Assembly (NCBI GenBank): GCA_001599355.1
Contig: BCGQ01000005.1
Location: 993,342 to 1,057,341 of the forward strand
Source of the DNA: Nakazawaea peltata
Lineage: Eukaryota > Ascomycota > Pichiomycetes > Alaninales > Pachysolenaceae
DNA length: 64,000 bases
Reading direction: 5' to 3'
Part shown: positions 3,628 to 56,384 of the stretch, one piece after another
Position numbering within the stretch: the stretch's first letter is position 1
Layout: each line of letters starts with the position of its first letter
The notes under the pieces: model-generated
What the model was told of the DNA's origin: nothing
Databases searched by the model: none
What the model saw: the letters and a program-made list of their open reading frames with translations, nothing else
Program-made: the position numbers and the translations under genes

Positions 3628-6450
3628 ATGAACGAGTCTGATGGTCATGGTCATGGCCATTTCTCAGACTTGCAACTCAATGCATTGATGGGAAACTCCC
3701 CCTCTCAACAACCACAACTCGACGACAAACATGACCTTGATTCGACACTTTTCAACCTCTTGAGCAGTGAGGCAAACTCGGCAAATTCCACTCCCGAACC
3801 TCCTAGTCTAACTCAGCTTCTGAATCTGCAAGTCCTGCCTCCTGTGGTGGCGGCTCAGGTCGTTATGGCTAAGGGCGCTTCCCAATCTACTAAGAAACTG
3901 CTGCCTCCTGTAGTGCTGCTGAAGGTTATCAAGGCAAAGAGAGATCTTCTGGGCACATCCACAACCACAACAACAACAACCACTGACACAGATCCTCAAG
4001 ACGATCCTCAAGCTGATGACCTCGAACCTGAAGATGATGACGATTCCTCCAGAATCTCCCTGTATGCTCGTCTAGACTTCCCCAATTTCACGTTCTACGT
4101 CCAAACTTTACAAGTATTGCTTGGGCGTAAGATCGATAACGATCATGATAACTCAGTCGACGTCCATTTGGGCTCAACTAAGGCCATCTCACGTAAACAT
4201 GGTAAGATTTTCTACAATTTTGGTACTCAAAGATTCGAGTTGAGTATTTTAGGGCGAAATGGAGCCTTTGTAGACGAGACTTTTGTCGAAACTGGCGTCA
4301 CATTGCCATTAAAGAACAACACCAAGATCCAAATAGGTGAAATTCCATTCCAATTTGTCTTACCTACACCTAATTCCAAGACCAAGAAGAACTCCAAGAG
4401 GAAACAGATCAACCCATCGGATGCGATCAGCATGAAATCAAGCTTTTATAATAGCAGTAGTACGGCAAATTCACCTAGAGTTGGTAGACATCTTTCTACT
4501 GACTCTGTGAGTGCTAAAATCAAGGAAGAATCACCTTCGGGAACGGGAAATACCACAGCTATAACGACTCCAATAATACAACCATCACAGAATGTTAGTC
4601 AATCTCAGGCTCAGATCGTATCTCAACCTCAAGGTGAGGGTCTGACTCAACTTTCAGCTGAGACTTCAGGTCAACTTCAGACTCCATCTCTGGGCCAATC
4701 TCTGGGCCAGTCCCTGTCCCAAAGTCTCTCTCAACCCACAGACTCAAAGAAACCAAAAGAAAAACCTCCAAAGAAAGTCAAACAACCAAAGAAAGTTTAC
4801 ACCCTCGAAGAGATCCCAGAACAATACCGTACCAAACCAAACCATTCCTACTCTCATCTCATTGCTATGTGCTTGAAAGAAAGGTGTACAGAAAGAGGAA
4901 TGTCTCTATCGGAGATCTATAAAGCCATCCAAGAAATGTATCCATACTACCACTACTCCCCAGACGGATGGCAGTCCTCGGTTAGACATAATTTATCACT
5001 CAACAAGTCATTCAAGAAGGTTAGTAAAGAAGGTAAGGGATGGTTATGGGGATTGGATGAGGAATATTATAATGAGAAGGAGAAAATGGGTGCTTCTCCT
5101 GCTGGTGATAGCAAGAAATCCATTTCTAATACTAGCATTCAGGCTCAGTTAGCTGCTAATAGGGCTAAAGTGTATTCTGGCGCATCACCAAGTCCTGGGA
5201 CATCCACAAATACCGGTGGTTCTACTACTTCTGCTGCAACAACTACTTCCAATACTTCTACAGCTCCTGTTCCTGCTACTTCCACTCCCTCTGCCACTCC
5301 TGCTACTCCTGCTACTCCCTCTAAAGATTCTAAAGATTCAGACCTGTCAACTACTCCAATGAGTAAGCTTTCCGGTGACACAATGAAAGCTTTGAACTAC
5401 TTACAACAAGAATTAATAAGGTTAACTAAAGATCGTAAAGGTCTTGACAAGAAAACCACTACTCAAATCTTAACCCAAGCGTTGGCTATGACGATTTCTC
5501 AAGTAAACCAAGCAGCTAAGAACAGTGGAATGACCGGAAACCCATTGGTTTTATTAATCGATAAGAATCCTCAACATTTGACAAAGATTTTGACTGCTGC
5601 TTTGAATGCAGCTACTTATCAAGTGACAAAGGGTAAAGTCAAGCCTGGAATGGTTAATAATAATAATGTAGATTCACCGGGAGGATCAACACCAAAGAAA
5701 ACACCAGCTACTAAACCGGCTCTGTCACTGGCCTCCACACTGGCCTCCACTCCAGCTCCAACACCATCAAAACCACCTATTAATGACAAATTCCAACCTC
5801 CCCACGTGACTAATCCACTGCCTCTGCAATTGACTAAAGCTCTGACAACTACACCACGTCCAGCAGCATTTTCAAGACCATCACTGTACTCAGCACCTAG
5901 ATCTCTGGCCTCCCTGGGCTCTGGCCTGGTCTCTAACCTGGCCACTAACCCAGCATCCCCTGCCAACCTGACTCCAAAACCAAAAATCTCCAAACCTTCA
6001 TCTTATTCAGCACCTTCCAACGGATTTTCAGCCTCCGTTCCGTCGTTGAAAACGAAACCAAAGTCTCAAGATGTTTCTAACGACAGCATTGAAATGAACA
6101 AGCCATTCACTCCGGACGATCTCACATCCAAACCGATCTCAGCATCGGCAGGTTCTGTAGGCTCCACAGGGTCCATAGGCTCCACCGGGTCAGCTGCCTC
6201 ACCCTCTCCCGATCTCAACGACCCTCTCAACGACCCAGAAATCGATAAAGTCTTAGAATCCTTCTCAAGACAAGGAACCCCAGGCTTAGATGACCATAAC
6301 GAATCAGAACCAGTAGATTTAGACAAATTACTCGCCGAAGATGGCTATTTAAACGACGATCTGCTCCTCGAATCGGTCTCAGGAGTCAAAAGAACAGCAG
6401 ATCCTCACCACACCGACTCTCCAGAGTCCAAACTCCCAAAGTTAGACTAG
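3628..6450 (+). CDS. FHL1: Forkhead/FHA transcription factor Fhl1
   Basis: 940 codons with an FHA domain (about residues 145-248) and a forkhead DNA-binding domain (about 403-482, including PDGWQSSVRHNLSLNKSF and GWLWGLDEEY). The rest is Ser/Thr/Pro/Gln/Ala-rich and disordered. The FHA sequence (FTFYVQTLQV, AISRKHGKIFYNFGTQRFE) and the EIPEQYRTKP lead-in match Fhl1, not Fkh1/2. Fhl1 with Ifh1 activates ribosomal-protein genes; the FHA domain binds Ifh1. Its neighbours are the same as in S. cerevisiae (YPR104C next to PRE2 and RPL11A). CTG is frequent; read as Ala it restores the conserved AYARLDF start of the FHA (codon 4060) and makes the tail Ala/Pro/Ser-rich. Its long CT-rich leader is listed separately. 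Confidence 0.9.
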   Translation: MNESDGHGHGHFSDLQLNALMGNSPSQQPQLDDKHDLDSTLFNLLSSEANSANSTPEPPSLTQLLNLQVLPPVVAAQVVMAKGASQSTKKLLPPVVLLKVIKAKRDLLGTSTTTTTTTTDTDPQDDPQADDLEPEDDDDSSRISLYARLDFPNFTFYVQTLQVLLGRKIDNDHDNSVDVHLGSTKAISRKHGKIFYNFGTQRFELSILGRNGAFVDETFVETGVTLPLKNNTKIQIGEIPFQFVLPTPNSKTKKNSKRKQINPSDAISMKSSFYNSSSTANSPRVGRHLSTDSVSAKIKEESPSGTGNTTAITTPIIQPSQNVSQSQAQIVSQPQGEGLTQLSAETSGQLQTPSLGQSLGQSLSQSLSQPTDSKKPKEKPPKKVKQPKKVYTLEEIPEQYRTKPNHSYSHLIAMCLKERCTERGMSLSEIYKAIQEMYPYYHYSPDGWQSSVRHNLSLNKSFKKVSKEGKGWLWGLDEEYYNEKEKMGASPAGDSKKSISNTSIQAQLAANRAKVYSGASPSPGTSTNTGGSTTSAATTTSNTSTAPVPATSTPSATPATPATPSKDSKDSDLSTTPMSKLSGDTMKALNYLQQELIRLTKDRKGLDKKTTTQILTQALAMTISQVNQAAKNSGMTGNPLVLLIDKNPQHLTKILTAALNAATYQVTKGKVKPGMVNNNNVDSPGGSTPKKTPATKPALSLASTLASTPAPTPSKPPINDKFQPPHVTNPLPLQLTKALTTTPRPAAFSRPSLYSAPRSLASLGSGLVSNLATNPASPANLTPKPKISKPSSYSAPSNGFSASVPSLKTKPKSQDVSNDSIEMNKPFTPDDLTSKPISASAGSVGSTGSIGSTGSAASPSPDLNDPLNDPEIDKVLESFSRQGTPGLDDHNESEPVDLDKLLAEDGYLNDDLLLESVSGVKRTADPHHTDSPESKLPKLD

Positions 6451-6498
6451 ACTACATCCTCATTTTTAGCATTTCTAATATATTTATATATATATTTT

Positions 6499-7350
6499 TT
6501 AACCTTTAACGTTATTAAAACTTCCCTCCTTCTCCTTGGTCTCCCAGAATAACGGCCCAACATCATGATTGCCATGGAATACCCAACCGTTCTCGGTCAC
6601 GTGATACAAATTGATAGAACCACCAGAATAAGCGTCTCTATGAGCAGCAGCAAGAATCGATCTCTTACCCAAATACAACAGTTCTTCTACGGTCAAATCC
6701 CACTTATAATTAGAATCCAAGACACCATATGCAAAAGTCTGACCAGATCCGACACAAAAGAGGTCTCCCTTCAATCTGGTCCCGTCGGAATCGACATAGT
6801 AGATAGTTGGACCTTCCTTCTTGGTGTATCCACAAACCATAGTACCCATAGATAATCCCATTCCTTTGTATTGATACACCAAATTACCCAAGATCTTGGA
6901 CAGAGCCAGGACCGAGATACGTTCCTTCTCACGTAATTCGTGTAAACGACATTGAGTTCCTAACCAAGTCTCCCAATATTGACAATCGGCAGCTCCTCCC
7001 GCCATGGTACCCAATAAAAATGGGTTGATTTCAATCACTTTCTTCACCGTTTGCGAGGCAATCCAGTTACCTGCAGTGGCTCTAGAATCCACAGCTACTA
7101 CGATTCCACCTTGGAATCTGAACAGCAACGTCGTAGTACCGTGAGCAATCTTGATGGCACAATCCTTGTTTTGAGAGTCATCCGTGTGGGCTCTAAGGAA
7201 TTCAGCCGGTTGAGAAATAGGAGGCAAAGTGATGGAAGGTGCCAAGTTCAATCCGACGCCGGAATTGAAGAATTCTTCCTTGATCGAGTCGATGTCCTCG
7301 ACCTGTTTGTTCGCCGAGGCGTGTGTGTATTGAGAACTGATCGAATTCAT
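6499..7350 (-). CDS. PRE2: 20S proteasome subunit beta5 (chymotrypsin-like)
   Basis: 283 residues with a 71-residue propeptide ending in Gly71, then the catalytic Thr72 (mature Thr1) in HGTTTL. Asp88 (Asp17) and Lys104 (Lys33) of the active site are present, as are the family blocks [24 protein letters not shown], and [13 protein letters not shown]-like sequence. It is very close to S. cerevisiae Pre2 throughout. Three CTG codons (7123-7125, 6907-6909, 6901-6903) sit exactly where Pre2 has Ala (TLAFRF; RISVAAASK), which is strong evidence for CUG = Ala. It is divergent from RPL11 across a 313-bp shared promoter and convergent with FHL1 (48 bp apart). Confidence 0.98.
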
Positions 7351-7663
7351 CTCAATTGATTTTGATCAGAACACTTGGTGTTTGAAGTGGCGTTTATCAA
7401 TGGCGATTTTTGTCTTCTCTTTGGAGAGTCGTGCACAATACGAAAAAAGTGTAAATCAGCAGATTATCATTTTGTACATCGTTACACCACTTGCATCATA
7501 ACACCAGGGTATAACCCTATCGCGCAGCTCCCATCTCTGTAGGGGAAAAAATTTTCTACTCAACTTTTTTCATCTGGAAAGTTTTTCTTCTTGATATTTT
7601 TTTCAAATTTATTTAATTCATTCATACCATCAAGGATCAAGCAATAACCTAAAATTAGCAAAA
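7351..7663. promoter_or_regulatory. Shared PRE2/RPL11 divergent promoter
   Basis: A 313-bp gap between divergent starts. It holds CACC/CAGGG-rich and AACCCTAT strings (7490-7520) that could be ribosomal-protein gene elements, a T-rich stretch from 7550 on, and an A-rich leader just before the RPL11 ATG. No exact Rpn4 (GGTGGCAAA) or Rap1 consensus was found. Binding assignments remain inference. Confidence 0.4.
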
Positions 7664-8550
7664 ATGGTAAGCAGAAATGTTAATAATTGGAATACGAGAG
7701 ATGATAGAGCAGAGTCAGTCAAGGGATGAAGAGAGAACATGATGAGGATTCCAGTTGAATACCGTTTTTGAATCTAATTTTCATGGGAGTTGTGATGATA
7801 ATACATAGTAGGATATGAGGAAGGATAAAGACATGACTGAAAGCAGCATGTTTGAACAGATGAAGCTAAGAGCTTCTGCGTTTCCTGATTCTCTACACCT
7901 GTATTGATTCACTCTCTGATTTTAAGATTCAAGAATAAAAACTGTGACCCCTCGTAGTGTTCCTCTTAGTGCTTCTCTTAGCTCAGTAATCTCCGTATCC
8001 ACATCCTCCCACAAACCTCATACTAACACCACACCAGTCTTCCAATCCTATGAGAGAACTCCACATTGAGAAGTTGGTTTTGAACATCTGTGTCGGTGAA
8101 TCCGGTGACAGATTGACCAGAGCTTCCAAGGTCTTGGAACAATTGTCTGGTCAAACCCCAGTTCAATCCAAGGCTAGATACACCGTCAGATCTTTCGGTA
8201 TCAGAAGAAACGAAAAGATTGCCGTCCACGTCACCGTCAGAGGTCCAAAGGCTGAGGAAATTCTCGAGAGAGGTTTGAAGGTCAAGGAATACCAATTGAG
8301 AAACAGAAACTTCTCTGCCACTGGTAACTTTGGTTTCGGTATTGCCGAGCACATCGACTTGGGTATCAAGTACGACCCAGGAATTGGTATTTACGGTATG
8401 GACTTCTACGTTGTTATGAACAGAGCTGGTGCCAGAGTTGCCAGAAGAAAGAGATGTAAGTCTACTGTTGGTAACTCCCACAAGGTCACCAAGGAGGACT
8501 CCATCCTGTGGTTCAAGGCTAAATACGATGCTGATGTTTTGGACAAATAA
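7664..8550 (+). CDS. RPL11: 60S ribosomal protein uL5 (Rpl11), one intron
   Basis: The coding sequence is join(7664..7666, 8038..8550), 171 residues. The first exon is the ATG alone, followed by GTAAGC; the intron ends ACACCAG with a TACTAAC branch point at 8021-8027. The spliced N-terminus, M then SSNPMREL, matches the yeast Rpl11 start ending NPMRDLKIEKL, which fixes both splice sites. The rest is nearly identical to Rpl11 ([21 protein letters not shown]). Rpl11 binds 5S rRNA in the central protuberance of the large subunit. The single CTG (in EDSI-CTG-WF) lies at a position that is small or polar in relatives. Codon use is strongly biased, as for a highly expressed gene. Confidence 0.97.
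7667..8037 (+). other. RPL11 intron (371 nt)
   Basis: 5' splice site GTAAGC directly after the start codon, branch TACTAAC at 8021-8027, 3' site CAG at 8035-8037. The branch-to-AG distance is short. The interior contains C-box-like and D-box-like motifs discussed as a possible snoRNA. Confidence 0.93.
7735..7852 (+). ncRNA. Possible box C/D snoRNA within the RPL11 intron
   Basis: A C-box match ATGATGA (7739-7745), a C'-like TGATGAT (about 7793) and a D-box CTGA (7837-7840) lie in order, and AACATG (from 7736) can pair with CATGTT (about 7847-7852). The stem overlaps the C box, no clear D' box is seen and I could not match a guide to rRNA, so this is only a candidate. Confidence 0.2.
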
Positions 8551-8646
8551 ACACATTTCGTGTAATATATATCATATCATCTAATAAAAACCACGATAGT
8601 TAGTCATCTTGTAGTACATAGTTTTTTCGAAATCATAAATCATTAC

Positions 8647-9306
8647 TTATACATCACTATGAATTTGAGCCAACTCTAATTTAGCACATTCCACTCCAAC
8701 ATCGATACATCCCTTTAAACTTTCTTGCCATCTGGACTTCAAATACTCATCAGTAGGTTGATACTCAACTTGTCGTCTCTTCCGATCCAGCTTTATCTCA
8801 TCGACAGCGATTCTTTTCTTATGCAAAACACTTTCCACTTCCTCGTTATACAAAGCAAGAACATCATTATTAATCAACCATTTGTTCTTATGAGTCTCTT
8901 CACACACATTCGATAAAGTTAAAGATCTTTTTCTTAACAAAGAATGCGATAAAGATGAATATAAATTTTCGTAGTTCAACTGATTATCCTCGGTGGTGAG
9001 ATTTGAATATTTAGACATATCAATACCACCTAATGTAAAATCTTCTTCAAAACTAGACAGGTAAAAATCGTCATCTTCATATAATTCACGGAGCATCAGA
9101 GAATCTGCCACTTCGTCTCTGGTGAATCTGTTCTCCAACGAAGGGTGGATCTGCTGAGTATTCATTTCCGCAAATTCCCTCGCCACCATAGCGTTCACCT
9201 GATCTCTCAGTTGTTCCGATACTTCTTGGTCAAGATAGACTAAAGAGTCGTTAATTCTCATCAACACTTCGTTGCTATCGGGGGTTGCTTCTTTATCTTT
9301 GAACAT
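8647..9306 (-). CDS. SNT309: Prp19-complex splicing factor, BCAS2/Snt309/Cwf7 family
   Basis: 219 residues. The N-terminal NDSLVYLDQEVSEQLRDQV block corresponds to the D(S/A)LPYID start of BCAS2-family proteins, and the C-terminal half is a charged coiled coil (about 125-215) ending in a WQESLKGCIDVGVECAKLE segment like the W..LV.KN.EIE.A...LE of the family. Snt309/BCAS2 stabilises the Prp19 (NineTeen) complex that activates the spliceosome. Sequence similarity is modest, but the location next to RPL11 and PRE2 is exactly that of SNT309 (YPR101W) in S. cerevisiae. It is convergent with RPL11, with fewer than 100 bp between stops. Confidence 0.8.
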   Translation of the reverse strand: MFKDKEATPDSNEVLMRINDSLVYLDQEVSEQLRDQVNAMVAREFAEMNTQQIHPSLENRFTRDEVADSLMLRELYEDDDFYLSSFEEDFTLGGIDMSKYSNLTTEDNQLNYENLYSSLSHSLLRKRSLTLSNVCEETHKNKWLINNDVLALYNEEVESVLHKKRIAVDEIKLDRKRRQVEYQPTDEYLKSRWQESLKGCIDVGVECAKLELAQIHSDV

Positions 9307-10303
9307 GACTTGGACAGTTAGGTTCTCTTGTGTGGTGCCCGATGATGCTTGTGTAGTACACTGAATATATCTAGTTGATCAGATGTTTCTTTCTATTTGC
9401 TCTTGCCTTCGTTTCTTTAGCGCCTTAGACATTTTTTTACTCCGATCGGAATAATGTACGGATTCGGTAATTTTTTGAGCCGTTTCCGTGAAGGGAATGA
9501 GAAGTGTAGGGCATTTGGAGGAGTAAGAGGAAGGGTGAAGAAGAAGAAGAAGGAGGCCCTGTCACTCGTATGGCACTGATTTGTAAATGGCTGAGATGTG
9601 AGAGAGGCTGTGGTATAGATGAATGTCGCGACGGATCTGAGTATAGGAGAATGGTGGGGTAATAGCAGGTACTTTAGGTGATTTCATAAAGGAAAATATA
9701 AGGAGAAATTTATATGGAAAATTTGTAAAGGGATAAATTTGGTAAGGGATAAATTTCAAAAATCTCTGTAAAGGGGTTAATTTGTGAGGATAAAATTGTA
9801 AAGGGATAAATTTCTAAAGGGGTAAATTATAAGAAGTAAATTTGTTAAGGGATAAATTTGTAAAGAGATAAACTTTAAAAATCTCTTTAAAGGGGTTAAT
9901 TTGTAAGGATAAATTTGTAAAGGGGAAAATTATGGTTAAATTATGGGTAAATTAAAAGCGAATTATACACAGTAACCACTATACTGACTATTAGACTGAC
10001 CATCATACTGATCACCATACTGATTATCACATTTATCACTTACTACTACACTGCAATAATCACTAAGATAACAGCGTACTATCACATACTAACCATTATA
10101 GCATCCTCCAGCCTACTGTAGCCCCACTGTATTCTCTATATCCTCACCTACTCAATATCAACATTAATTATTATATTATTTATTATGCGTATTATCTAAC
10201 GTTCACTCATTATCTAAAGTTCATCATTTATGCATCATCTTTATGCACATCATCTATCTCATACCCCGCATCGTCCATTAATTCCGCATCGTCTATCGTT
10301 TTC
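9307..10303. other. Intergenic region with degenerate AT-rich minisatellite
   Basis: It holds the SNT309 promoter side (9307-9560), a degenerate repeat of GGGATAAATTTGTAAA-like units (about 9690-9960), then ACTATACTGACCATCATACTGA-type degenerate repeats (about 9975-10050) and AT-rich sequence up to the SSU1 stop. No gene is visible. Confidence 0.6.
9690..9960. repeat. Degenerate AT-rich minisatellite
   Basis: Many imperfect copies of a 15-22 bp unit with core AAAGGGATAAATTTGTAA, including two longer near-duplicates (about 9745-9790 and 9865-9910) containing ATCTCTKTAAAGGGGTTAATTTGT. It is non-coding on both strands. Confidence 0.75.
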
Positions 10304-11398
10304 CTAAAATATACGAGGAGTCTCATATATAATTGACCCGATCAAACAAACAATCACCGTAAGTATACAGGCCACTCCGTAAATGGCAGACAAAACTCTA
10401 AATGCACCGAATCCTTCGAATGAAGAACTGAGCTCATGACAGCAAACAGACATGGCTCCAATTGGGAAAGTCATTGCCCACCAGGCCTTGCTGAAAGCTA
10501 TTTTACCCCTGTAGATACAAGTCCATGTTGCAAACAGAGAGAGAAAGATCCCGAACGAGATCAAAAAGAGTCCCAAGAGGAAACTTGTAGAATGAGCAAA
10601 CTCTGCAATGATCTCACGGTTCTTGTAGTCTGAATATGTGAGTAAATAATGTTTGACATTCAACCCGTTATTGAGGATCCCCCAAGACCCTTGGGCGAGA
10701 AGTCCAATTGGAACCCAAGTGGTGAACATCAATTGTTTAGGAGGAAGCTTATAAAGAACTAATCTCCAGATATAGATGGCAATAATGCAGAAACCAAGAC
10801 AAAGAGAATTGGACCAAAGCATGAGTGATACAATGATAGTGATCATTTGTAAGTTGGCAGTTGGGAGTGATTGCAGAATAAGAGCTCCGGTGGCTGCTGA
10901 CACGGTTAAAGGTAATACAGGTAAAATCAACACCAGTTGAATTCCTTGTTCAGTGAATTTACTCTTTGTGAAAAGAATGAATACCAAGATCCATCCACAC
11001 AGTAATGCCAATGCTACATTAATCCACCATAAACACCAGATCCCGATAGCCCATTTCCCGTCACTCACGAAATGAGACATATTGACAATAGTGGACCAAC
11101 CCATTGAGTAAGCACCGAAAAATACAGCACTGGTGGGGTTTGTGAATACATCTGGCATATCCTCGGGGTAAAGTATGGCTTTCCCCAGGAACAAAGCGGT
11201 TGTAATCAAGAACAACATCAACGAGATACCCCACATTATATAACCACAGATCTCTAACCAATACAGTGGATATGGGAACCGGAAAAGAATTGCTGCTGCA
11301 ATTCCTGAACCCATGAAACTTATGAACCATACAGGATGGAAGTCCCTGAAGATGAGTTCTTTTTTAGATTTGACAGGTTTTTCAATCTCTTCGTTCAT
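10304..11398 (-). CDS. SSU1: Plasma-membrane sulfite efflux pump Ssu1 (TDT family)
   Basis: 364 residues with about ten hydrophobic segments and a short charged N-terminus, typical of the tellurite-resistance/dicarboxylate transporter fold. The opening FRDFHPVWFISFMGSGIAA, the NMSHFVSDGKW-like region and the WGILNNG segment resemble Ssu1, the sulfite exporter that gives sulfite tolerance. The HPVWF and GSGI motifs are the family's signature. It is a full-length reading frame with a clear ATG. Its promoter faces the 3' end of LTE1 over 700 bp. Mae1-type malate transporters are the alternative, but the overall match favours Ssu1. Confidence 0.85.
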   Translation of the reverse strand: MNEEIEKPVKSKKELIFRDFHPVWFISFMGSGIAAAILFRFPYPLYWLEICGYIMWGISLMLFLITTALFLGKAILYPEDMPDVFTNPTSAVFFGAYSMGWSTIVNMSHFVSDGKWAIGIWCLWWINVALALLCGWILVFILFTKSKFTEQGIQLVLILPVLPLTVSAATGALILQSLPTANLQMITIIVSLMLWSNSLCLGFCIIAIYIWRLVLYKLPPKQLMFTTWVPIGLLAQGSWGILNNGLNVKHYLLTYSDYKNREIIAEFAHSTSFLLGLFLISFGIFLSLFATWTCIYRGKIAFSKAWWAMTFPIGAMSVCCHELSSSFEGFGAFRVLSAIYGVACILTVIVCLIGSIIYETPRIF

Positions 11399-12103
11399 TC
11401 TTATTAGTAGGTGAGAGTCAGTTTAATTTTGAGTATAGTGCACTAGACACAATGTATAGGATTGTATAAGTGAACTTCACTTGTCTTATCGATGTCAGAT
11501 CTTCTTACAATAGCAATAGCCACTTTTTATATACTTCGAACCTCATTGAGCATCATATGCGGCTATTGCACCCTGCTTTTCATCAGCCACAATATCGCTC
11601 ATCAGCCATATTAGTCAGCCCCCGTATTATTCTCCACTCTTCGCCGCAAAGGAAAAAGCTTAAATTTCCCAATCTGGAGGGTTCGGTACGGGTTCTGAGT
11701 AAGCGACAGATGATCGGTTCGGGGAATGGTCATCGGCCAGAGAGAAAAACATACTTTAAATGGCTGCTCTGGTGTTTGCCGCGCGGGATCCCAGCTCCTC
11801 CCGCTCCATTTTCAGAGGTTATCTGTAACGGATGGTAGGTCCTACTTTGTGGCTAGTGCCTGCCGTCTGACAAATAGCGCCTTACCCGGCTCTAATTTTC
11901 GGCTTCATTCACTATGTAAGGGAGAAGGGGATAAATCCGGGGATAAAATTGGGGGTGGAATTTAATGGAAGTGATGCTTGATTACTCAGCTCAATCGTCC
12001 TCATCTCTATCCACTTATCCTAGCTACTTACCTGGCTACTCTACTAGTCCTACACCTTCTAAATATCTCATCATATTACATGCCGAAACCTAACTGTCTC
12101 ATG
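11399..12103. other. SSU1 upstream region
   Basis: A 705-bp gap between the SSU1 start and the LTE1 stop. It is GC-richer than other gaps around 11640-11830 (GCCGCGCGGGATCCC). I see no conserved reading frame, tRNA or repeat; it presumably carries SSU1 control sequence. Confidence 0.4.
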
Positions 12104-20310: not shown

Positions 20311-20919
20311 TTAATAAGCCCGATACCACATACGATGAATCTGAGTGTCCATCATCTTCTTCTGAAGTTGGAATACTCCATACATTAACAGCTCAGATGT
20401 AGGTGGACATCCAGGGACATACACATCTACAGGAACAATCCTATCGACACCTCTGACCACACTGTAAGAATAGTGGTAGTATCCGCCACCATTGGCACAC
20501 GATCCCATACTGATTACCCATCTCGGATAAGGCATCTGATCATAAACTTGTCTCAACAGAGGAGCCATCTTGTTAGTCAAAGTACCAGCCACAATCATAA
20601 TATCAGATTGACGAGGAGACAGTCTGAAAATGATACCTAATCTATCCTGATCATATCTTGGAGCGGACACATGCATCATCTCCACAGCACAACAGGCCAA
20701 TCCGAATGTCAGCGGCCAAAAAGACGACTTTCTAGCCCACATCTTGATCTTATCCAACGTGGTGAACGTGTAGTCCAAGGCATTTGTATTAGGTCTCTTA
20801 GATAAGACAGGTGAATCCACCGACATATTAGAAGGAGTGACATCTTTTGTGGAAATCAATCTAGTCCCACGCAGACTTAACCCAATTCCAGCATTCCTGA
20901 CTCCACTTCTGATCATCAT
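20311..20919 (-). CDS. NUKM: NADH:ubiquinone oxidoreductase PSST/NUKM subunit, mitochondrial
   Basis: 202 residues from the ATG at 20919: a short mitochondrial targeting N-terminus, then the NuoB/PSST core with [11 protein letters not shown] (two of the four N2-cluster cysteines), [20 protein letters not shown] and [11 protein letters not shown] (the others). This subunit carries iron-sulfur cluster N2 beside the quinone site. Three CTG codons (20620-20622, 20557-20559, 20389-20391) lie at the near-invariant Ala of FR-A-SPRQ, MAP-A-LR and SE-A-LMYG, the clearest CUG = Ala evidence in the window. A nuclear complex I gene excludes Saccharomycetaceae, which lost the complex. Confidence 0.98.
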
Positions 20920-21138
20920 CTTTGTTTTTACCAATGATTGGATTCAATCTTATTCCGTTCAATTAATAAACCTCGTCCCACTTAATTTTCGCACCACTTC
21001 AAAGTGGGGAAGTTAATTTGTAAATTGCTCTTTCTCCGCAACAATCCACATTATTTCGTAGTTTGCTAATTTGTATTTATTCGTATTTTGCTCATTTCTA
21101 CATCATCACTTCATATCAATGCTAAATTATCTATACAA

Positions 21139-43039: not shown

Positions 43040-43064
43040 ATAAATATGAATAAATATATACAGT

Positions 43065-43607: not shown

Positions 43608-43863
43608 ATAGTTGATTTTAGGGTGTGAATGTAGATGGTGATTGATAAGTATTTTGCCCTTGTAGTTGAGATTCTTGTGAGTTGAGGTGGGGTTGGATAG
43701 GTAGCCCTAGAAATTCCCATTTGGGAAATCTTGATTAGAATTACTTACAGCCCCTAACTTTCCAAATCTAGCCACCACTTTAATAACGAAAAATTTTCAA
43801 CATTTATCAAATGTTGAAGAAGACGAACGTTGGTTGAAGAAGGCAGTTCACGAGATATTAATA

Positions 43864-46205: not shown

Positions 46206-46218
46206 TCTATTTATTATA

Positions 46219-47538: not shown

Positions 47539-47725
47539 TTTAACGGTTCTTACTATCACTTGTGATTACTTTGAACTTCTCATGACTAATCTCGAAGGGG
47601 TTGAAAAGTTTTTTGTATAAATTACTTGATATGGAAATTGATGTGTTACTACATTTGGAAGTTAATTTCAAATATATTATTTGTAATTTGCTAAGGATAA
47701 TTATTGGGGTAATTTTCGTAATTTG

Positions 47726-49369
47726 CTAAATACCCCAGATCTTGACGAGATGATCATCTCCAGCTGATGCAAAGATCTTACCATTGTAACCTTTACCGTT
47801 GATATTCCAATCGACAACGTTAACTAGACCACGATGAGCAGGAAGGGCGAAGATTAACTCTCCATATTGCCTATTCCAGATATAAATTCTACCGTCTTCG
47901 GAGCCACTCAAGACGACGCTTTCATCCCAGTTTCCAAATGAGCTTCTAATCACGTAATTACGTTGCTGTTGACCGATATAGATGCAGATTAGGCGAAGTT
48001 CGTCGATATTCCATAATTGGATTTCTTCAGGAGCCACATTGATAATACAAAATTTCGAGTCTTGTGAAGTTGTGATCGAAGTCAACCGTTTACCAATATT
48101 GATCGAAGCTGTTTTCAGTTTAGATACCAAATCATAAACTTCGAGATTATTGGTGTGAGTGATAGTGAGTAATTTCTTACCATCTCTGGTCACAGCTAGG
48201 TCGGCAATTCTCTCAGTGACATCCCAATTATACACTTCTTTACAGTCATTCTTACCCAATTTGAACCATACCATTTTCTTATCGGGAGAAGCCGAGATAA
48301 AACCTGAGGAATCAGGAAGCCATCCAAACGTCCAGATACGAATGGTATCTGTGAATTTAATCTTTTGGAGTTGTCTACCGGACTCGACATCCCAAAGTCT
48401 GAAATGTAAATCCATTCCGCAACTGAGAATATACTTATCATCGGGGGACCAACATGCGTATGTGACGGGTCTGGACGAGTCACAAAGTCTATGCTTGATG
48501 GAAAAGTTATCTTCCACATCGTAAATCAAAATGCTAGCATCTTTAGATGTAGAACATAAGTATTTCCCATTGTTACTGAACTTGACGTACCATACTTCGT
48601 TTTCATGGTGACTTAACTCGAATATACATCTAGTTGGAAAGCTGCTCTTATCAAATGCGAGGTCTTTATAAAGATGGACAACCTGACTTTGCGAATCATC
48701 TGCTCTTTCCAGTGGATTGTCCTTGAGATCGATCAACACTCTCGACCGTTGGAATTCAATCGATTGTTCTAACAATGTAAGCAATCTATGTTGAGGCAAT
48801 AAATATTCGGGAGAGATCCACTCGGTGATCTTATCGCATAATGCTTTACGTGACTCATTTGCAGAGCCAAGCCAGCCCAACTTCTGCAAATCCACACTGT
48901 CACTATCGGTGTCCAAAACTAGTGAGGATAAAAGCCGTATCTCTTCTTCTGTGACATTCAATGGCTGGAACTGCGTCCTCAAGAAACTTATAGCCTTCGA
49001 ATGATCCTCTTCCACTAATAAAATCTCCAAAAAATGCTCTCTCCTAAGAAGGTACTTGATCTTTAATCTGTCGTAGTCTGAAGTGGAGTTTATTTCACCT
49101 GTATGACGTACTGGTAACAACTTCAAACTGTCCACATATGATTCCGCTTGCTGGAATTCCCCCTCCTGAACAAATTGTAGGAACAATTGCACCCTCTCAT
49201 CATCTGAATTATCCTTGTGTAACGCCCTTAGTTGATCAGCTACCTCTGGGTAGTTCATATCGTCCAAGCATTGGGTGATCAAGCGTAATACTTCTGCTTT
49301 GCTGAATTGTCCATATTTGTCGTCCTTCTGAAGTTGTCTGGAGGCGTTATATGAGTTGATAGGTGACAT
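47726..49369 (-). CDS. GID7: GID/CTLH E3 ligase WD40 subunit Gid7
   Basis: 547 residues from the ATG at 49369 (24 upstream codons begin only with TTG). A LisH motif (about 20-50) and CTLH region (about 55-115) precede a WD40 beta-propeller (about 215-545; blocks such as SCGMDLHFRLWDVESG, SGSEDGRIYIWNRQYGE and ASAGDDHLVKIWGI at the very end). It is the yeast counterpart of WDR26. Gid7 dimers drive assembly of the ring-shaped ligase that degrades gluconeogenic enzymes, notably Fbp1, after glucose return. PDI1 follows; GID7 and PDI1 are also close on S. cerevisiae chromosome III. Confidence 0.92.
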   Translation of the reverse strand: MSPINSYNASRQLQKDDKYGQFSKAEVLRLITQCLDDMNYPEVADQLRALHKDNSDDERVQLFLQFVQEGEFQQAESYVDSLKLLPVRHTGEINSTSDYDRLKIKYLLRREHFLEILLVEEDHSKAISFLRTQFQPLNVTEEEIRLLSSLVLDTDSDSVDLQKLGWLGSANESRKALCDKITEWISPEYLLPQHRLLTLLEQSIEFQRSRVLIDLKDNPLERADDSQSQVVHLYKDLAFDKSSFPTRCIFELSHHENEVWYVKFSNNGKYLCSTSKDASILIYDVEDNFSIKHRLCDSSRPVTYACWSPDDKYILSCGMDLHFRLWDVESGRQLQKIKFTDTIRIWTFGWLPDSSGFISASPDKKMVWFKLGKNDCKEVYNWDVTERIADLAVTRDGKKLLTITHTNNLEVYDLVSKLKTASINIGKRLTSITTSQDSKFCIINVAPEEIQLWNIDELRLICIYIGQQQRNYVIRSSFGNWDESVVLSGSEDGRIYIWNRQYGELIFALPAHRGLVNVVDWNINGKGYNGKIFASAGDDHLVKIWGI

Positions 49370-49489
49370 TTTGTAGGTCCGCCACTTGATTGAATACCGC
49401 CTTATCTCTTTAATTAATAGATTGATTTTCCGATTAGGCAATTTTATGTTATAAATTATTTCCTAATTAGGAATGTGATGAGGAGGGTT

Positions 49490-49590
49490 GGGGGCACAAG
49501 AATATGTGGCTATACAGCATGTGGCTACACTGTATGAGGCTACACTGTATGTGGCAACAGCATGTGGCTACAGTATATGGCTAACTACAC
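49490..49590. repeat. GTGGCTACACTGTAT-type degenerate tandem repeat
   Basis: Five to six imperfect copies of an approximately 18-20 bp unit with core CATGTGGCTACACTGTATG between GID7 and PDI1. Confidence 0.7.
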
Positions 49591-49624
49591 TCAATATCCA
49601 ATCGTCACTTTTATTACATCGTAT

Positions 49625-51139
49625 CTATAATTCGTCATGGACACCTTCTTGAGATTTCTCCAAAGCTTTCTGGGCTTGTTTATGTTCATAACCAATGAAT
49701 GAGAGTAAACTTTCATAATCTCTTTGTCCTTCGTAATACTTTGGTTCTTCTCCATTTTTATACAAGACTAAAGTAGGGAAACCCTTGATATTCACCTTTG
49801 GAACTCTGTTGGCCTCGTAGTCTAACTTGGCGATCACAAATTCAGAGTCATTGGCTACTTTTTTGGCCACCAGATCGTAAATTGGAGCCAATCTTTTGCA
49901 ATGAGAACACCATGGAGCATAGTACTCAATCAATGTAGTTTTAGAGGTATCGCTCACGAGCTTTTTATGAGACTTTTTATCCAAAGTGATTACAGTCTCA
50001 TTTTCAGGGTCATAATCATCCAAATTTGGAAGCTCACGTTTAGTCTTAGCCTCTAACTTACCATCAAAGAAATCTTCGAGCCATGGCTCAATTTCTCTAG
50101 GTTTCAAACCAGAGTCCTGCGACATACCATATTTCAATCCACTTCTCAAATCGTCGATTCCAAACAGTGGGAACATGACATCCATTCCCAAATTCTTAGC
50201 ATGGATACCATATCTGTTGGCGTCTAAGGCAACAATGTTCAATTCACCTCTATGTTTCCTGGCTAAAGCTCTCATTAAAGGAGCAATTACCTGTCTTTCT
50301 TCATCGTAATTCAAGTAGAAGAAGAAGGCCAATGGCAAACCAGAATCTTGGTACATACCGATTGTATCTCCACCAACTTCACCGAACAAAGGCATAGCTT
50401 CGGTGGTGATGAACTGGGTAATATTAGCATTCTTGTCGCTCAAATCCAAAACGGCAATATCCTCATCGGTCTCTTCTTCCTCCTCATCAGGGTGATAAAC
50501 CAAGATTTTACCTCCCTTGACATTGAATCTCTCATTCAATGAATCTACCGACAGCTGAACAAACGTATATTTGTCACTGTTGTGTACAGCAAACTCTGTG
50601 AATGTTTGGTTAGCAGCCAGATCCACCTTATCAGACAAATAAACAATCACAGGGTTGAAAGCCGACTCGAGAATCTCGTCAAGTTTCTCGGCTTTCTCCA
50701 AATAATGAACATCTGGATCTGTCTTCTTGATCATGTACGAAGTGATATCCTCAGCAGTACGAGGGCCAGTATACTTAACTGGGATCGAGTTAAAACCCTT
50801 GTACACGTGCAATTGAGGATACAGTTGGACTCCGTTATCGAGACAGAACTCCTCATACAAAGTACAGTCGATTTGTCCAATCAGAATACCACGGTCATCC
50901 AAATTATCCGCGGCTTTCGACAACTCAGGCCCCAACTTCTTACAATGAGAACACCAGGGGGCAAAGAACTCCACCATAGCTAACTCATTGGTCGACAAGA
51001 AGGACTCAAAGTTATCCTCGCTTAACTGCGTAATCAATGATCCAGCAGGGGCATAAGCAGTGTTCTCTTCCTCCAGCTTCGACGCCAGTGAGGCAACAGC
51101 TACAACAGCAGCAAACACAGACAGTGCGCGTACCAACAT
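49625..51139 (-). CDS. PDI1: Protein disulfide isomerase, ER lumen
   Basis: 504 residues from the ATG at 51139. A signal peptide (about 1-22), four thioredoxin folds (a, b, b', a') and a C-terminal HDEL retention signal (stop 49625) are present. Both active sites read WCSHCK (Cys63/66 and Cys411/414) instead of the canonical WCGHC. Family: oxidises and isomerises disulfides with Ero1 and supports glycoprotein degradation with Htm1. The remaining catalytic surroundings (EFFAPW, YYAPW, cis-Pro regions GFPTLVLYKNG) are intact, so activity is expected, perhaps with a shifted redox potential. Confidence 0.96.
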   Translation of the reverse strand: MLVRALSVFAAVVAVASLASKLEEENTAYAPAGSLITQLSEDNFESFLSTNELAMVEFFAPWCSHCKKLGPELSKAADNLDDRGILIGQIDCTLYEEFCLDNGVQLYPQLHVYKGFNSIPVKYTGPRTAEDITSYMIKKTDPDVHYLEKAEKLDEILESAFNPVIVYLSDKVDLAANQTFTEFAVHNSDKYTFVQLSVDSLNERFNVKGGKILVYHPDEEEEETDEDIAVLDLSDKNANITQFITTEAMPLFGEVGGDTIGMYQDSGLPLAFFFYLNYDEERQVIAPLMRALARKHRGELNIVALDANRYGIHAKNLGMDVMFPLFGIDDLRSGLKYGMSQDSGLKPREIEPWLEDFFDGKLEAKTKRELPNLDDYDPENETVITLDKKSHKKLVSDTSKTTLIEYYAPWCSHCKRLAPIYDLVAKKVANDSEFVIAKLDYEANRVPKVNIKGFPTLVLYKNGEEPKYYEGQRDYESLLSFIGYEHKQAQKALEKSQEGVHDEL

Positions 51140-51396
51140 CTCGTTCTTTGGCTTCGAACCTCTTTTTTCACTCTCCAAGCTTTTCTTCACCTTTATATAC
51201 CCGCTGAATCTATCGGAATTAATTTTTTTCACTCATGCACTAAATAATACAATATGATAGACGCACGTAAAATGATACTGACAAGGAGATGGCGCACAGA
51301 GGGGCGACTTTTTATCTAAATGATCTGAGGGGTATTTTCAGTGCGCTGTTAAGTAAGGGGGGACTTCATTTATTATGAAAATAAGTGAGATTCTAT

Positions 51397-52911
51397 TTAA
51401 GTTCTTGGATGTTCGATATCGTCACCGATTTCGAGCATTTTTTGTTCCAAAAGGGTGGTCATCTGTTTACGGATTTCAGCATACTTAGGGTCGTCGTAGA
51501 CGTTGAACAATTCCAACTCGTCCTCTTGGCAGTCAAACAATTCCCATTCTTTTTCTTCACCGCCTTCCTTGGTACCTTCTAAACCAAAACCTTCGTTGTA
51601 CCAGTAAATCAATTTATATCTTTGGTCTCTTACTCCGTAATGAGCATACGCGTTGTGGTTATCATCACGGTGCATCCAGTACCGGTGGTAGGCCACTTGT
51701 TGCCAATTTACAGGGGTCTTTTGTTCTAACAACTGGGTGAACGATCTTCCTTGCATGTAGTTTGGAATGGTCAAACCTGCAATGTCCAAGAAAGTAGGGG
51801 CAAAATCAACGTTACTGATGATGTCGTTACATACAGTTCCTGGTTTGATCAATTTTGGGAATTTGATCAAGAAAGGCATTTGGAAAGAGTCTTCATACAT
51901 GAATCTCTTATCGAACCAACCGTGCTCACCTAAGAAGAAACCTTGGTCCGAAGTGTAGATAACTAAAGTATTCTCAGTCAATCCCTTCTCGTCCAAATAA
52001 TCTAACAATCTCCCGGTATTGTCATCAATAGATTGGATAGTACGCAAGTAACGCTGCATATATCTTTGGAACTTGAAGTGTCTCAATTCTTCTTGGTTCT
52101 TGAATCTGAATACCTCTCCGGTGGATTTGTCAATCAACTTGAAATTTTCCAAGTTCTTAGGTAATGGGACCTTTCTGCCACTCCATGCGGACTCACCGAC
52201 CTCTTCTTCACCTCCGTCAGGCTGAGCCAATCCGAGATCGAAATAAGTCAAATCGGCATCGACCCTCATTTTAGCTGCTGCTGCTGCTTTGGCCCTGTTT
52301 TTGTAGTCGTCATCAAACGACTCAGGAATTCGAATCTCTTCCTTGTACAAATCCCTGTGCTTTGGATGGCATTCCCAGGATCTATGAGGAGCTTTATGGT
52401 GGCACATCACAAAGAAAGGTTTATTAGGGTCTCTCTTTTCGATAAACTCGATACTTTTATCGGTGATAATATCAGTAGCATAGCCTTTAACTCTTATGTC
52501 CTTGCCCATTTCAATAAACTTCGGGTCAAAATAATCTCCTTGGCCAGGAACAACTGACCAGAAGTCAAAGCCAGATGGCTCATGGCGGACCCCTTCTCCC
52601 AAATGCCACTTACCAATCATTGCAGTCTGGTATCCACCGGTTCTCAAATGTTTGGCAACATTGGGAATTCTTTTGTTGATCTTGGAACTCAACGTGTGGA
52701 CTCCATTCACATGATTATAAGTTCCTGTCAAGATACTAGCTCTGCTGGGAGTACAAATCGAATTGGTGACGTAGCAGTGGTTGAATTTCATACCTTCTTG
52801 GGCTATCCGATCCAAGTTGGGGGTGTGGTTGATCCCAGCACCATAACAAGAAATAGATTTGGCCGCATGGTCATCGGCCATGATAAAAATGATATTAGGT
52901 TGGGAGGTCAT
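51397..52911 (-). CDS. Formylglycine-dependent sulfatase
   Basis: 504 residues with no signal peptide. The N-terminal metal site IIFIMADDHA (Asp13/14 in MADD) and sulfatase signature ICTPSRASILTG with Cys53, the residue converted to formylglycine, are intact; GKWHLG and a late TSDQGFFLGEHG complete the site. The 'DDHAAKSISCYG' type with N-terminal SICTPSR resembles bacterial and filamentous-fungal sulfatases of the alkaline phosphatase superfamily. Substrate is unknown (aryl, choline or glycan sulfate). Predicted cytosolic, so maturation would need a formylglycine enzyme or anaerobic-type SME. Possible old horizontal transfer; no compositional jump is obvious by eye. Confidence 0.9.
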   Translation of the reverse strand: MTSQPNIIFIMADDHAAKSISCYGAGINHTPNLDRIAQEGMKFNHCYVTNSICTPSRASILTGTYNHVNGVHTLSSKINKRIPNVAKHLRTGGYQTAMIGKWHLGEGVRHEPSGFDFWSVVPGQGDYFDPKFIEMGKDIRVKGYATDIITDKSIEFIEKRDPNKPFFVMCHHKAPHRSWECHPKHRDLYKEEIRIPESFDDDYKNRAKAAAAAKMRVDADLTYFDLGLAQPDGGEEEVGESAWSGRKVPLPKNLENFKLIDKSTGEVFRFKNQEELRHFKFQRYMQRYLRTIQSIDDNTGRLLDYLDEKGLTENTLVIYTSDQGFFLGEHGWFDKRFMYEDSFQMPFLIKFPKLIKPGTVCNDIISNVDFAPTFLDIAGLTIPNYMQGRSFTQLLEQKTPVNWQQVAYHRYWMHRDDNHNAYAHYGVRDQRYKLIYWYNEGFGLEGTKEGGEEKEWELFDCQEDELELFNVYDDPKYAEIRKQMTTLLEQKMLEIGDDIEHPRT

Positions 52912-53108
52912 TTTTCACTTCCTTGAACTATCTTCTCCAATTTTCAAACAATCCTAGTTACCCGATCCCTTATATATATTTTCAGATGCAGATCTCGGTT
53001 CCCCCGCAATTCATGCAGGGCGAAAGATTTTGAATTTTTCACACAGTTCTTTTAATCTTCAACGGAAATGGTGGAATTGAGTGAGTGGAAAAAAATAAAA
53101 AAAATAAT

Positions 53109-53189
53109 GGCTGGAAGGAGGTTCGAACTCCTGCCTCTTTCGAGACTCGATCTTGAGTCGAGCGCCTTAGACCACTCGGCCATCCAGCC
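53109..53189 (-). tRNA. tRNA-Leu(CAA)
   Basis: 81-nt class II tRNA on the minus strand. The acceptor stem is GGCTGGA/TCCAGCC, D-arm TGGCCGAGTGGTCTAAGG, anticodon stem CTCGA/TCGAG with loop CTCAAGA (anticodon CAA, G37), a long variable arm CTC-GAAA-GAG, and T-arm AGGAG-TTCGAAC-CTCCT. No intron. It reads UUG. The loop is CAA, not the CAG that would read CUG. Confidence 0.97.
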
Positions 53190-53314
53190 CAATTGTATGT
53201 TTGTTTTATTGGGTCCTGAACCATACTCGGAGTGGGACTTCTCTTATAAGTTATAGTTACAATTGACGGCGCTAAATTGGGATAGAACTACAGTTGATTA
53301 AGATATTATTTATT

Positions 53315-54189
53315 ATGTTAAAAGTGGTATTGGTAGGCGATCCCGGTGTCGGTAAAACCAAGTTGATGGAGAGTTGGACCGGGCAGGTAAACAAAGACAT
53401 CATCGCAACAGCGGTCGTACAAATAAATGGTATCGGGGCTCCCGCCAGTGTTCATATTTGGGATTTACCTGGAGATGATACATATGATCGACTTCGTCCC
53501 ATCTTGTATCTGGATGTGGATCTGGTGTTCATTTGTTTCCTGGTAGATCGAGTGGATACGATGATCAGTGTAGTCGTTCGATGGTGCCCGAGTTACAAAT
53601 GTACTGCCATGATGTCAATAAGGTGTTGATAGGATTGAAAAAGGATAAAAGACCTTGTCATAACACGACCGACATTGAGTCATGTCATCAAATGGCAGCA
53701 AATTTGGGTATTCCTTACCATGAATGTTCTCCTATGTTTGATGGGGATTTGAAAGGGATCTTAGAAATGGGCTTGAGGAGAGTTCCTATCAAACAAACAG
53801 AAACAGCAACAGAAATTCAGCAAATACCTCAAGAGCTTGAGATTCTTGATCAGTATCGTCATTCCAAACAATTAGAGCTCAATTCTGCCCCGAAATGCTC
53901 TTCATCAGAACCTCAATATCAATCCAGTTCACTGAGATCCCCCTCAGCCACTCCCCTAAGTGCCGACTCAATTTCTCCCTCAAGTAGCCCCTCAAGTAGC
54001 CCCTCAAGTGCCCCAGCCTATAGTATATCACATACCTCAACCATAAGATCTATAACCCGGCCTACTCTCACTCGAATGAGCTCCATGGGATCCCTCAGAG
54101 ATATTGTTGCCCAGCGCAAGAAACTCAGGAAACTGAGGGCTCAACTGTATCGTCGACACCATCGGAAATCAGCATGTTTCATAGTATAA
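53315..54189 (+). pseudogene. RHO4: RHO4-like Rho-family GTPase split by a frameshift
   Basis: From ATG 53315, frame 1 encodes a Rho N-terminal half (P-loop GDPGVGKT, WDLPGDDTYDRLRP, then FICF-CTG-VD), but runs out at 53627-53629. The rest (VPELQMYCHDV, LKKD, ECSPM, and a CAAX-type end ACFIV) is in another frame to 54189. Between VD (53546-53548) and the PE motif (53587) there are 38 bases where Rho proteins need 39, so one base is missing, in the genome or the assembly. Even ignoring this, the Gln of DTAGQ is Asp and the equivalent of Ras Gly12 is Pro. It precedes TRM2 in the same orientation as RHO4 (YKR055W) precedes TRM2 (YKR056W). Length (about 291 codons) also fits Rho4. Confidence 0.6.
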
Positions 54190-54195
54190 CACGCC

Positions 54196-54414
54196 CTATT
54201 TCTCTTTATTCGCATCATATTCGCTATTGTAGAAACTATCCCACAAACTGGCAACACTATCAAACTCTTTACCCACGGCAATACTGTTCTCCAATGATCT
54301 ATTTAACGCGTTCATTTCATTCAAGATCAGTTCCATCGAGGTGGAGATTTCCAGGATCAACAAGTCACGCTGTTTCTCGAAATATGACAACTCTTCTTTC
54401 TCAGGTTCCGACAT
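54196..54414 (-). CDS. DAD1: DASH/Dam1 complex subunit Dad1
   Basis: 72 residues, a small helical protein. SYFEKQRDLLILEISTSM, the ILNEMNALNRSLE core and SIAVGKEFDSVASLWDSFY match Dad1 (YFIEQRN, LNGLNISLE, SIAVGREFQSVSDLW). DASH forms rings coupling kinetochores to microtubules. It fits in the short space between the Rho gene stop and the TRM2 promoter. Confidence 0.95.
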   Translation of the reverse strand: MSEPEKEELSYFEKQRDLLILEISTSMELILNEMNALNRSLENSIAVGKEFDSVASLWDSFYNSEYDANKEK

Positions 54415-54965
54415 CTTATACTACTAAATCAACGTAAGCTCTATTCGACGAGTCCAAGCTCTTGCTTAATTTGAGATCCGGACAGATCTTTGTTATGTAA
54501 ACAAATATTTGCGCGTTGTGCACGACCAAAGCTCATCTGTTTTTTCGCTTAAAAATGAAAATTTTATCGCCTCGAGACATTTTGATAGTTCTTTAAGTAA
54601 AAAGTAGTCCAGGACCTTTGATGCATTTACTGGGGAGCTATAGAAGGTTCTTTCGATAGTAATTGTATCACTCTAATCCTGGTAGATCGAAATAAGCGCA
54701 TGTTTATCGGTGGGAGAATAGTATTTAGCGGGTTTAGTACCTGTTGGATTCGATGAGACTCTCACTCTACGAGCATCCATACATATATAAGGGGTTTCTT
54801 TTGTAGATATTGTGAAATGTAGATCTCTAACGTAGAAACTAGGACTCTATCTTGTCTTTGAGTATAAGCGCCTATTCAAATTCTTCGATTTTGATGTATT
54901 TTGGAGGCCACATGAAAAAAATTCAAACTATCTCTTCCAGACATCTATAACTCATCGCTGATCTC
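54415..54965. promoter_or_regulatory. DAD1/TRM2 divergent promoter region
   Basis: 551 bp between divergent starts. TATATAA is seen at 54783-54789 and a TTAAAAATGAAAATTTT A-rich element at about 54550. No gene or repeat is seen. Confidence 0.35.
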
Positions 54966-56384
54966 ATGTATAAAATACCTAGAAGTACGAGGGTTTTCTC
55001 TCGTTTCATAACTACTCAGACTTTAAAGGTGCCCAAGGGTTACAAGAATTACTTGAAAGAAATCCAAATAGATGATATCTCAACTAATAAATTGATTGTC
55101 GATGAGATCAACGATTTGGCCAAGCAGAGGGACTTGAGGTTACAGCTGAACCCAATAGACAAGATCAAGGAGTTTTGGTATAAAAGGCAGCTGCCATATA
55201 AAGAGGTGGATGTGGATATTATTCTGGTATCAAAAGTGACGGGACAAGGGATAGGTTATGTTGATGAGTTGCAAACTTTTGTCATGATTCCTTTCACTGT
55301 AGCGGGGGATTCAGTTACCCTGGCTTTAAGGAGACACTACGACTATTACATTGAGGGATATACAGTTAATTTGTTGAAGAAATCTAATGAGAGAGTGGAA
55401 CCTCGTTGCAAGCATTTTTCCGAATGTTCAGGTTGTCAACTTCAGTCCTCACCATACCATAGTCAGTTAAGCTACAAAAAGAGCATCATTGAATTTGCAT
55501 TTAGAAATCTGTTCAAATCGTCTAGATTTGACAGTTTGATTCATGAAACTGTCCTGTCTCCTTTGCATTACAAATATAGAACTAAATTAACACCCCATTA
55601 CTCGACCACGAAACTGGTTGGGTTGAACTCGGTTGATTCGGAGGTGCTTGACATTGAAAGATGTGAGTTGGCCACAGATATAGTGAACGAGGGGTACCTG
55701 TTAGAACGTAAAAGAGTATCTGAAGAGGAAGCTGAGAATGGGACTTTAGTTATTAGAGAGAACTGGGACCAAGGAAGAAGTTATGCTGTTGGTGCTAAGG
55801 ATTTGATCACCGAAAATGTCAACGGTTACCTTTACAAGTTCCCAATCTACACCTTCTTCCAAAATAACAACTCTATACTACCGGTTCTCCTAGAGTTTAT
55901 GGAGTCAAAGATATCCAAAAATTCATTTAAACTGTTGGTAGATACTTATTGTGGATCTGGGTTCTTCGGTATTCTGCTCTCCAAATCCTTTGAGCAAGTT
56001 TTCGGGATAGAAATTAGCTCCAAATCTGTTGAGTTCGCCCAGCAAAATGCCTCCTTGAATAATTTAGATAATGTCACTTTTATTGAAGGAACTGCGTCCA
56101 ATATTTTCGATCAAATGAAGGGTTTGGATCCTAATGAGACATGCATGATCATGGATCCTTCGAGAAAAGGATCTAATATGGAATTTTTGACCCAACTAGC
56201 TGAATTCAAACCCAAGATGATTATCTACGTTTCATGTAATGTGTTTTCTCAGCTGAGAGACTTACATCAGTTCCTAGAAGGATTGAATATGGATAAGGAA
56301 TACAAAGTTGAAAGCATTACGGGCTTTGATTTCTTCCCCCAAACAAGGCATGTTGAAAGTGTTATGGTTTTACAAAGAAGTTAA
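54966..56384 (+). CDS. TRM2: tRNA (uracil-54-C5)-methyltransferase
   Basis: 472 residues: a mitochondrial-like basic N-terminus, a TRAM-like region (about 85-130), the CKHFSECSGCQLQ cysteine cluster, and the SAM-binding domain with DTYCGSGFFG, MDPSRKG and catalytic Cys424 in VSCNV, then HVESVMV with the general-base Glu. It makes ribothymidine at tRNA position 54. The CTG at 56253-56255 aligns with the conserved Ala of SCN...ARD (S. cerevisiae SQARD). It also carries the RHO4 neighbour, as in S. cerevisiae. Confidence 0.95.
   Translation: MYKIPRSTRVFSRFITTQTLKVPKGYKNYLKEIQIDDISTNKLIVDEINDLAKQRDLRLQLNPIDKIKEFWYKRQLPYKEVDVDIILVSKVTGQGIGYVDELQTFVMIPFTVAGDSVTLALRRHYDYYIEGYTVNLLKKSNERVEPRCKHFSECSGCQLQSSPYHSQLSYKKSIIEFAFRNLFKSSRFDSLIHETVLSPLHYKYRTKLTPHYSTTKLVGLNSVDSEVLDIERCELATDIVNEGYLLERKRVSEEEAENGTLVIRENWDQGRSYAVGAKDLITENVNGYLYKFPIYTFFQNNNSILPVLLEFMESKISKNSFKLLVDTYCGSGFFGILLSKSFEQVFGIEISSKSVEFAQQNASLNNLDNVTFIEGTASNIFDQMKGLDPNETCMIMDPSRKGSNMEFLTQLAEFKPKMIIYVSCNVFSQLRDLHQFLEGLNMDKEYKVESITGFDFFPQTRHVESVMVLQRS

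Follow-up and report, generated by a model that had tools for sequence, protein, structure and literature searches.

Homology evidence for a CUG-alanine code in a 64-kb nuclear window of the budding yeast Nakazawaea peltata

A stretch of 64,000 nucleotides from contig BCGQ01000005.1 of Nakazawaea peltata (positions 993,342 to 1,057,341; hereafter the window, meaning the whole stretch that was analysed) was examined for the meaning of the codon CTG (CUG in messenger RNA) in its protein-coding genes. Sequence comparison makes it very probable that the window is part of a budding-yeast nuclear contig with the CUG-Ala code (NCBI table 26), in which CUG would be translated mainly or wholly as alanine. 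Alanine is ranked first for CTG by three homology tests, namely alignments with solved-structure chains, columns of prokaryotic homologues and Pfam scores; these tests share some window proteins and are thus not fully independent. A leucine meaning is clearly rejected by them, and a serine meaning less strongly.

Nuclear reassignment of a sense codon is very rare. Ordinary eukaryotic genes were recognized by Pfam along the window, including those for a proteasome subunit, ribosomal L5, RasGEF, cofilin/twinfilin, a complex I subunit and MAS20 (TOM20), as well as myosin, a thioredoxin-type PDI, STD1/MTH1 and a forkhead protein. CTG accounts for 221 of the 15,551 codons across 31 open reading frames (ORFs), so that translation of these ORFs with the standard code would render ∼1.4% of residues wrong, and expression of the proteins in a standard-code host would require recoding. 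An earlier, sequence-only reading had proposed alanine on the basis of eight codons in four genes and held that serine and leucine fit less well. All eight were found to be in-frame CTG codons on the strand and at the place given (three in NUKM, three in PRE2 and one each in TRM2 and FHL1), and both the proposal and the poorer fit of the two other residues were borne out by the tests described below. Its broader statement, that every Leu placed at CTG by automated annotation of this genome is wrong, goes beyond these tests; a translation table for the code (table 26) exists.

CTG sites aligned with solved structures

Ten window proteins were compared with sequences of solved structures. Every CTG was masked as X before alignment, and the alignment was therefore independent of the answer. 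Nine of the ten proteins gave alignments across CTG sites, FHL1 being the exception. For these nine, 15 of 37 alignments were entered; the rest involved extra chains or chains nearly identical to others. The 29te alignment was entered except for its last two blocks, those of 2h5g, 8tz1 and 3tij except for the final block of each, and myosin over part of its alignment. Counts are based on one residue per site, taken from the first reference entered, and on this basis 27 of the 74 CTG codons in the nine genes were without an aligned residue. Judging by entry and molecule names, the chains derive from S. cerevisiae, Komagataella, Yarrowia and human.

The 47 CTG sites that could be counted were occupied by Ala (12), Leu, Ser, Thr and Lys (4 each), Gly and Gln (3 each) and, less often, by other residues. 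Among control codons in these alignments, the five remaining Leu codons corresponded to Leu at 163 and to Ala at 12 of 298 sites, GCN codons to Ala at 114 of 227 sites, and Ser codons to Ser at 84 of 237 sites and to Ala at 29. Relative to the other Leu codons, CTG was thus enriched in Ala (Fisher p = 8e-6) and depleted in Leu, the odds of Leu being 13 times lower (p = 8e-10). The standard code, under which the alanine positions would be chance substitutions or alignment noise, can point to the four sites with Leu; on these counts, and on the scores that follow, we regard it as next to impossible. Relative to Ser codons, CTG was depleted in Ser (Fisher p = 1e-4) and more weakly enriched in Ala (p = 0.024). 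Two of the four serines in the first references are those at MYO2 site 157 and PRO2 site 68.

A further count was confined to strongly conserved surroundings, in which 80% or more of the residues up to three positions away agree with the reference. Twelve CTG sites fell into this class, with Ala at seven, Gln at two, Met, Thr and Ser at one each and Leu at none. The standard residue was found in this class at 48 of 65 sites of the other Leu codons, 43 of 52 sites of Ala codons and 43 of 59 sites of Ser codons.

Alignment likelihoods were calculated with BLOSUM62-derived rates and a divergence fitted per residue. Ala was the best residue for CTG, followed by Ser (9.0 bits lower), with Leu 15.4 bits below Ala, and Ala won in 1861 of 2000 bootstrap samples over sites. 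When the window's own codon rows were used as the model, the advantage of Ala was 11.0 bits over Ser and 46.3 bits over Leu. The standard residue was returned by 55 of the 57 codons with at least five sites, the exceptions being CTG and AGC (11 sites, 1.3 bits). Among the 57 codons tested, CTG is the only one to depart clearly from the standard code.

Prokaryotic columns, Pfam scores and the weighing of alternatives

Prokaryotic homologues were taken as best-match loci, up to 30 per search, which yielded 34 loci for NUKM, 30 each for GcvH, a CNT nucleoside transporter and an ADH-like protein, and 63 for PRO2; four of the searches had matches in 110, 113, 42 and 102 of 120 genomes. Over the 20 CTG sites in these columns the scores were +8.7 bits for Ala, -2.6 for Gly, -8.4 for Ser and -18.3 for Leu, placing Ser third, 17.1 bits below Ala, and Leu 27.0 bits below Ala. 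The PRO2 loci were found via a table-26 translation, and Ala was specified for site 59 in one of the six search patterns, a possible bias. Without PRO2 site 59 (19 sites), the scores were +7.0, -1.7, -8.1 and -16.9 bits, respectively, with Ser 15.1 and Leu 23.9 bits below Ala; without PRO2 entirely (15 sites), they were +5.7, -0.5, -8.6 and -12.5 bits. Of 48 codons scored in this way, 45 were standard, the exceptions being CTG, AGT (by 0.2 bit) and ATA (6 sites, 1.5 bits).

Pfam scores totalled 4306.1 bits over 36 families when the proteins were translated with table 26, 4262.4 bits with table 12 (CUG as serine) and 4243.9 bits with table 1 (standard). Ala therefore exceeded Leu by 62.2 bits (23 families higher, 5 lower, 8 equal) and Ser by 43.7 bits (20 higher, 6 lower, 10 equal); omission of two overlapping LRR families changed these differences to 63.6 and 33.2 bits, respectively. 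The largest single gain over Leu was that of PRE2 (11.0 bits). The totals cover ORFs with a family, each overlapping set being represented by its primary family, and exclude the WD40 ORF at 47726-49441 (2 CTG); CTG is absent from the ORFs for the sulfatase and mL43.

A context test, applied to Ala versus Leu alone, favoured Ala over Leu at CTG by 8.2 bits, and the sign of this contrast was right for all nine Ala and Leu control codons. It was not used for Ala versus Ser because the sign was wrong in three of six Ser codons.

Several observations weigh against a simple alanine meaning. Ala occupied 12 of 47 CTG sites as compared with 54 of 103 GCT and 51 of 104 GCC sites, i.e. about half the GCN rate, and alignable columns held 47 of 74 CTG codons versus 227 of 297 GCN codons; the enrichment of Ala over Ser codons alone was modest, as given above. 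Considering only Ala, Leu and Ser, the best residue at the 20 prokaryotic columns was Ala at 12, Leu at 4 and Ser at 4. Ala was the top of all 20 residues only in NUKM and CNT, with GcvH, ADH and PRO2 led by another residue, and CNT sites 476 and 536 lie in Leu/Val/Ile columns of the prokaryotic loci. The Pfam families LicD, RasGEF_N, LRR_8, Nucleos_tra2_C and FHA scored 0.2-3.3 bits higher with Leu (2.4-3.3 bits for the first three), while Pkinase, GCV_H, Aldedh, Thioredoxin, Thioredoxin_6 and FHA scored 0.1-1.0 bit higher with Ser. The context test put Gln, not Ala, on top, by 5.2 bits. Finally, a model in which the codon is shared between Ala, Leu and Ser (0.50/0.15/0.35) fitted the alignments 7.2 bits better than pure Ala.

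The last of these raises the possibility that CUG is ambiguous, with Ser or Leu making up a genuine fraction of the residues inserted besides Ala, in a lineage that has yet to complete its change of code; competing CUG tRNA genes have been described in four of five species of the Ser2 clade (PMC5951914). However, the same gain could come from lower conservation of CTG sites, homologue columns reveal constraint and not decoding, and in conserved surroundings Ala was the commonest residue and Leu was absent. We consider such ambiguity highly improbable. The lower conservation and the mixture gain are read here as the result of CTG lying at more tolerant positions, since a reassigned codon would be expected to return first where it is least harmful, although the data do not prove this. 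A serine meaning, as in the Ser1 or Ser2 clades, draws on the second rank of Ser in the alignment likelihood and the Pfam total, on the six families that prefer it and on the individual sites mentioned above, but Ala outscored Ser in each of the three homology tests; we hold a serine meaning to be slightly less probable again than ambiguity. Translation of CUG mainly or wholly as alanine accordingly remains the preferred reading.

CTG codons in individual genes

The gene for PRE2 (proteasome beta5; 6499-7350, minus strand) contains four CTG codons, and the PRE2 chain has Ala at all of them. Three, at residues 76 (7123-7125), 148 (6907-6909) and 150 (6901-6903), had been cited in the sequence-only reading as alanine positions, correctly in each case; the fourth, at residue 224 (6679-6681), had gone unnamed. 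The Pfam Proteasome score of the protein was 175.6 bits with Ala, 164.6 with Leu and 167.8 with Ser.

NUKM, the PSST subunit of complex I (20311-20934, minus strand), has CTG at residues 21, 75, 105, 126 and 182, and its Pfam Oxidored_q6 score was 95.0 bits with Ala, 89.2 with Leu and 93.1 with Ser. Three of these codons had likewise been assigned to alanine positions. The assignment holds at residue 182 (20389-20391), which is Ala in all three chains used and in 32 of 34 bacterial loci, and mostly at residue 126 (20557-20559), where the chains have A, V and A and 30 of 34 bacterial loci have Ala. Residue 105 (20620-20622) is divided: all three chains have Ala, but the bacterial best-match loci are not mainly Ala (P 19, G 9, A 5, F 1). 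Site 75 speaks against alanine, being Met or Val in the chains and Met in 31 of 34 bacterial loci, and site 21 had no aligned residue. The sequence identity of NUKM is 86% with chain 9iho and 81% with chain 6gcs, presumably from Komagataella and Yarrowia, respectively, values in keeping with a fungus that has complex I.

The TRM2-like tRNA (uracil-5-)-methyltransferase gene (54966-56384, plus strand) contains 11 CTG codons and scored 85.3 bits in Pfam with Ala, 80.5 with Leu and 84.0 with Ser. The CTG at residue 430 (56253-56255), also named as an alanine position, corresponds to Ala in three of the four alignments shown, two of these three being with variants of one protein, and to Ile in the other.

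In the FHL1-like forkhead/FHA gene (3628-6450, plus strand), the CTG at 4060-4062 (ISxYARLDF), upstream of the FHA domain, had no usable homologue among the structure matches listed, which covered other parts of the protein, and the Pfam FHA match begins downstream. An internal duplication had been offered as further evidence, with GCG GCT in the first copy (3850-3855, plus strand) matched by CTG CTG in the second (3916-3921, plus strand). These codons are present as described, yet the duplication was rejected as proof of a CUG-Ala code and kept as weak evidence, because, whichever code applies, no fewer than two bases per codon must change to turn GCG or GCT into CTG, and because a different FHL1 repeat, arranged in tandem and itself a point against alanine, has CTC (Leu) in its fourth copy where the other three have CTG. 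With 27 CTG codons, the gene has double the 13.4 expected (p = 7.6e-4), many of them in Ser/Thr/Pro-rich stretches.

The sole tRNA gene detected in the window was an 82-base tRNA-Leu(CAA) (53108-53189, minus strand), with no intron reported and with T runs downstream. No tRNA(CAG) was found in the window, which counts against the alanine reading, although a single 64-kb window is uninformative on genome-wide absence. The alanine identity pair of tRNA is G3:U70. By analogy with published work on the clade, CUG would be decoded by a tRNA-Ala with an anticodon mutated to CAG, and the ancestral tRNA-Leu(CAG) would have been lost (PMC5951914).

Three further genes in the window were noted. A Ras/Rho-like small GTPase gene (53315-54189, plus strand) appears split over two reading frames, the first carrying the GTP-binding start (Pfam Ras, 4.6e-12). 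The second carries GLKKDKR and ends in a CaaX-like sequence; its Ras match (7.8e-4) does not reach the curated cut-off. The split may reflect gene decay, a frameshift or an error of sequencing or assembly. The gene at 58626-63236 (plus strand) encodes an ALS-like cell-wall protein that has a GLEYA domain and a long run of repeats of 111 bases (37 residues); it has 3 CTG codons versus 21.8 expected at the window rate (p = 1.3e-6). A sulfatase with an SGSH-type C-terminus (51397-52911, minus strand) has no CTG in 504 codons versus 7.2 expected (p = 0.0018); no match at E ≤ 1e-40 was found in 21 Pseudomonadota genomes, by which a bacterial origin is neither shown nor excluded.

Comparison with known codes

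The discovery of the CUG-Ala code, made in Pachysolen tannophilus, dates from 2016 according to the citations in PMC5951914, and the description of a clade with this code comprising Pachysolen, Nakazawaea and Peterozyma followed in 2018 (PMC5951914). The relevant part of a 2019 report lists five species in the clade (PMC6692504), and passages of a survey from 2024, covering 1,154 strains, take the reassignment as given (PMC11540330); in the portions of these three papers drawn on here, CUG-Ala is reported from one small yeast group only. NCBI code table 26 (CTG=A) is named for Pachysolen nuclei, and the NCBI taxonomy contains an order Alaninales with the single family Pachysolenaceae and the genera Pachysolen, Nakazawaea and Peterozyma. 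Judged from the window itself, the organism would most likely belong to Pachysolenaceae (Alaninales), an assignment in which membership of the CUG-Ala clade would rest on the code itself. The alanine meaning of CUG is therefore already known in kind, and it agrees with the publications of 2016-2018.

The CUG-Ser codes (table 12; Ser1 and Ser2 clades) resemble the present case in that the same codon is reassigned, and their reassignment likewise proceeded via a tRNA with anticodon CAG derived from another tRNA gene (PMC5951914). They differ in the residue, as Ser fits the CTG sites of the window worse than Ala does. The closest likeness is to the CUG-Ala code of Pachysolen tannophilus, Nakazawaea and Peterozyma. 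The published clade is documented by tRNA genes and by mass spectra for key species (PMC5951914), and the code of the window by homology. The two share the same codon, the same new residue and the same setting in budding-yeast nuclear genes; the other codons tested here are standard, and no difference from table 26 was seen.

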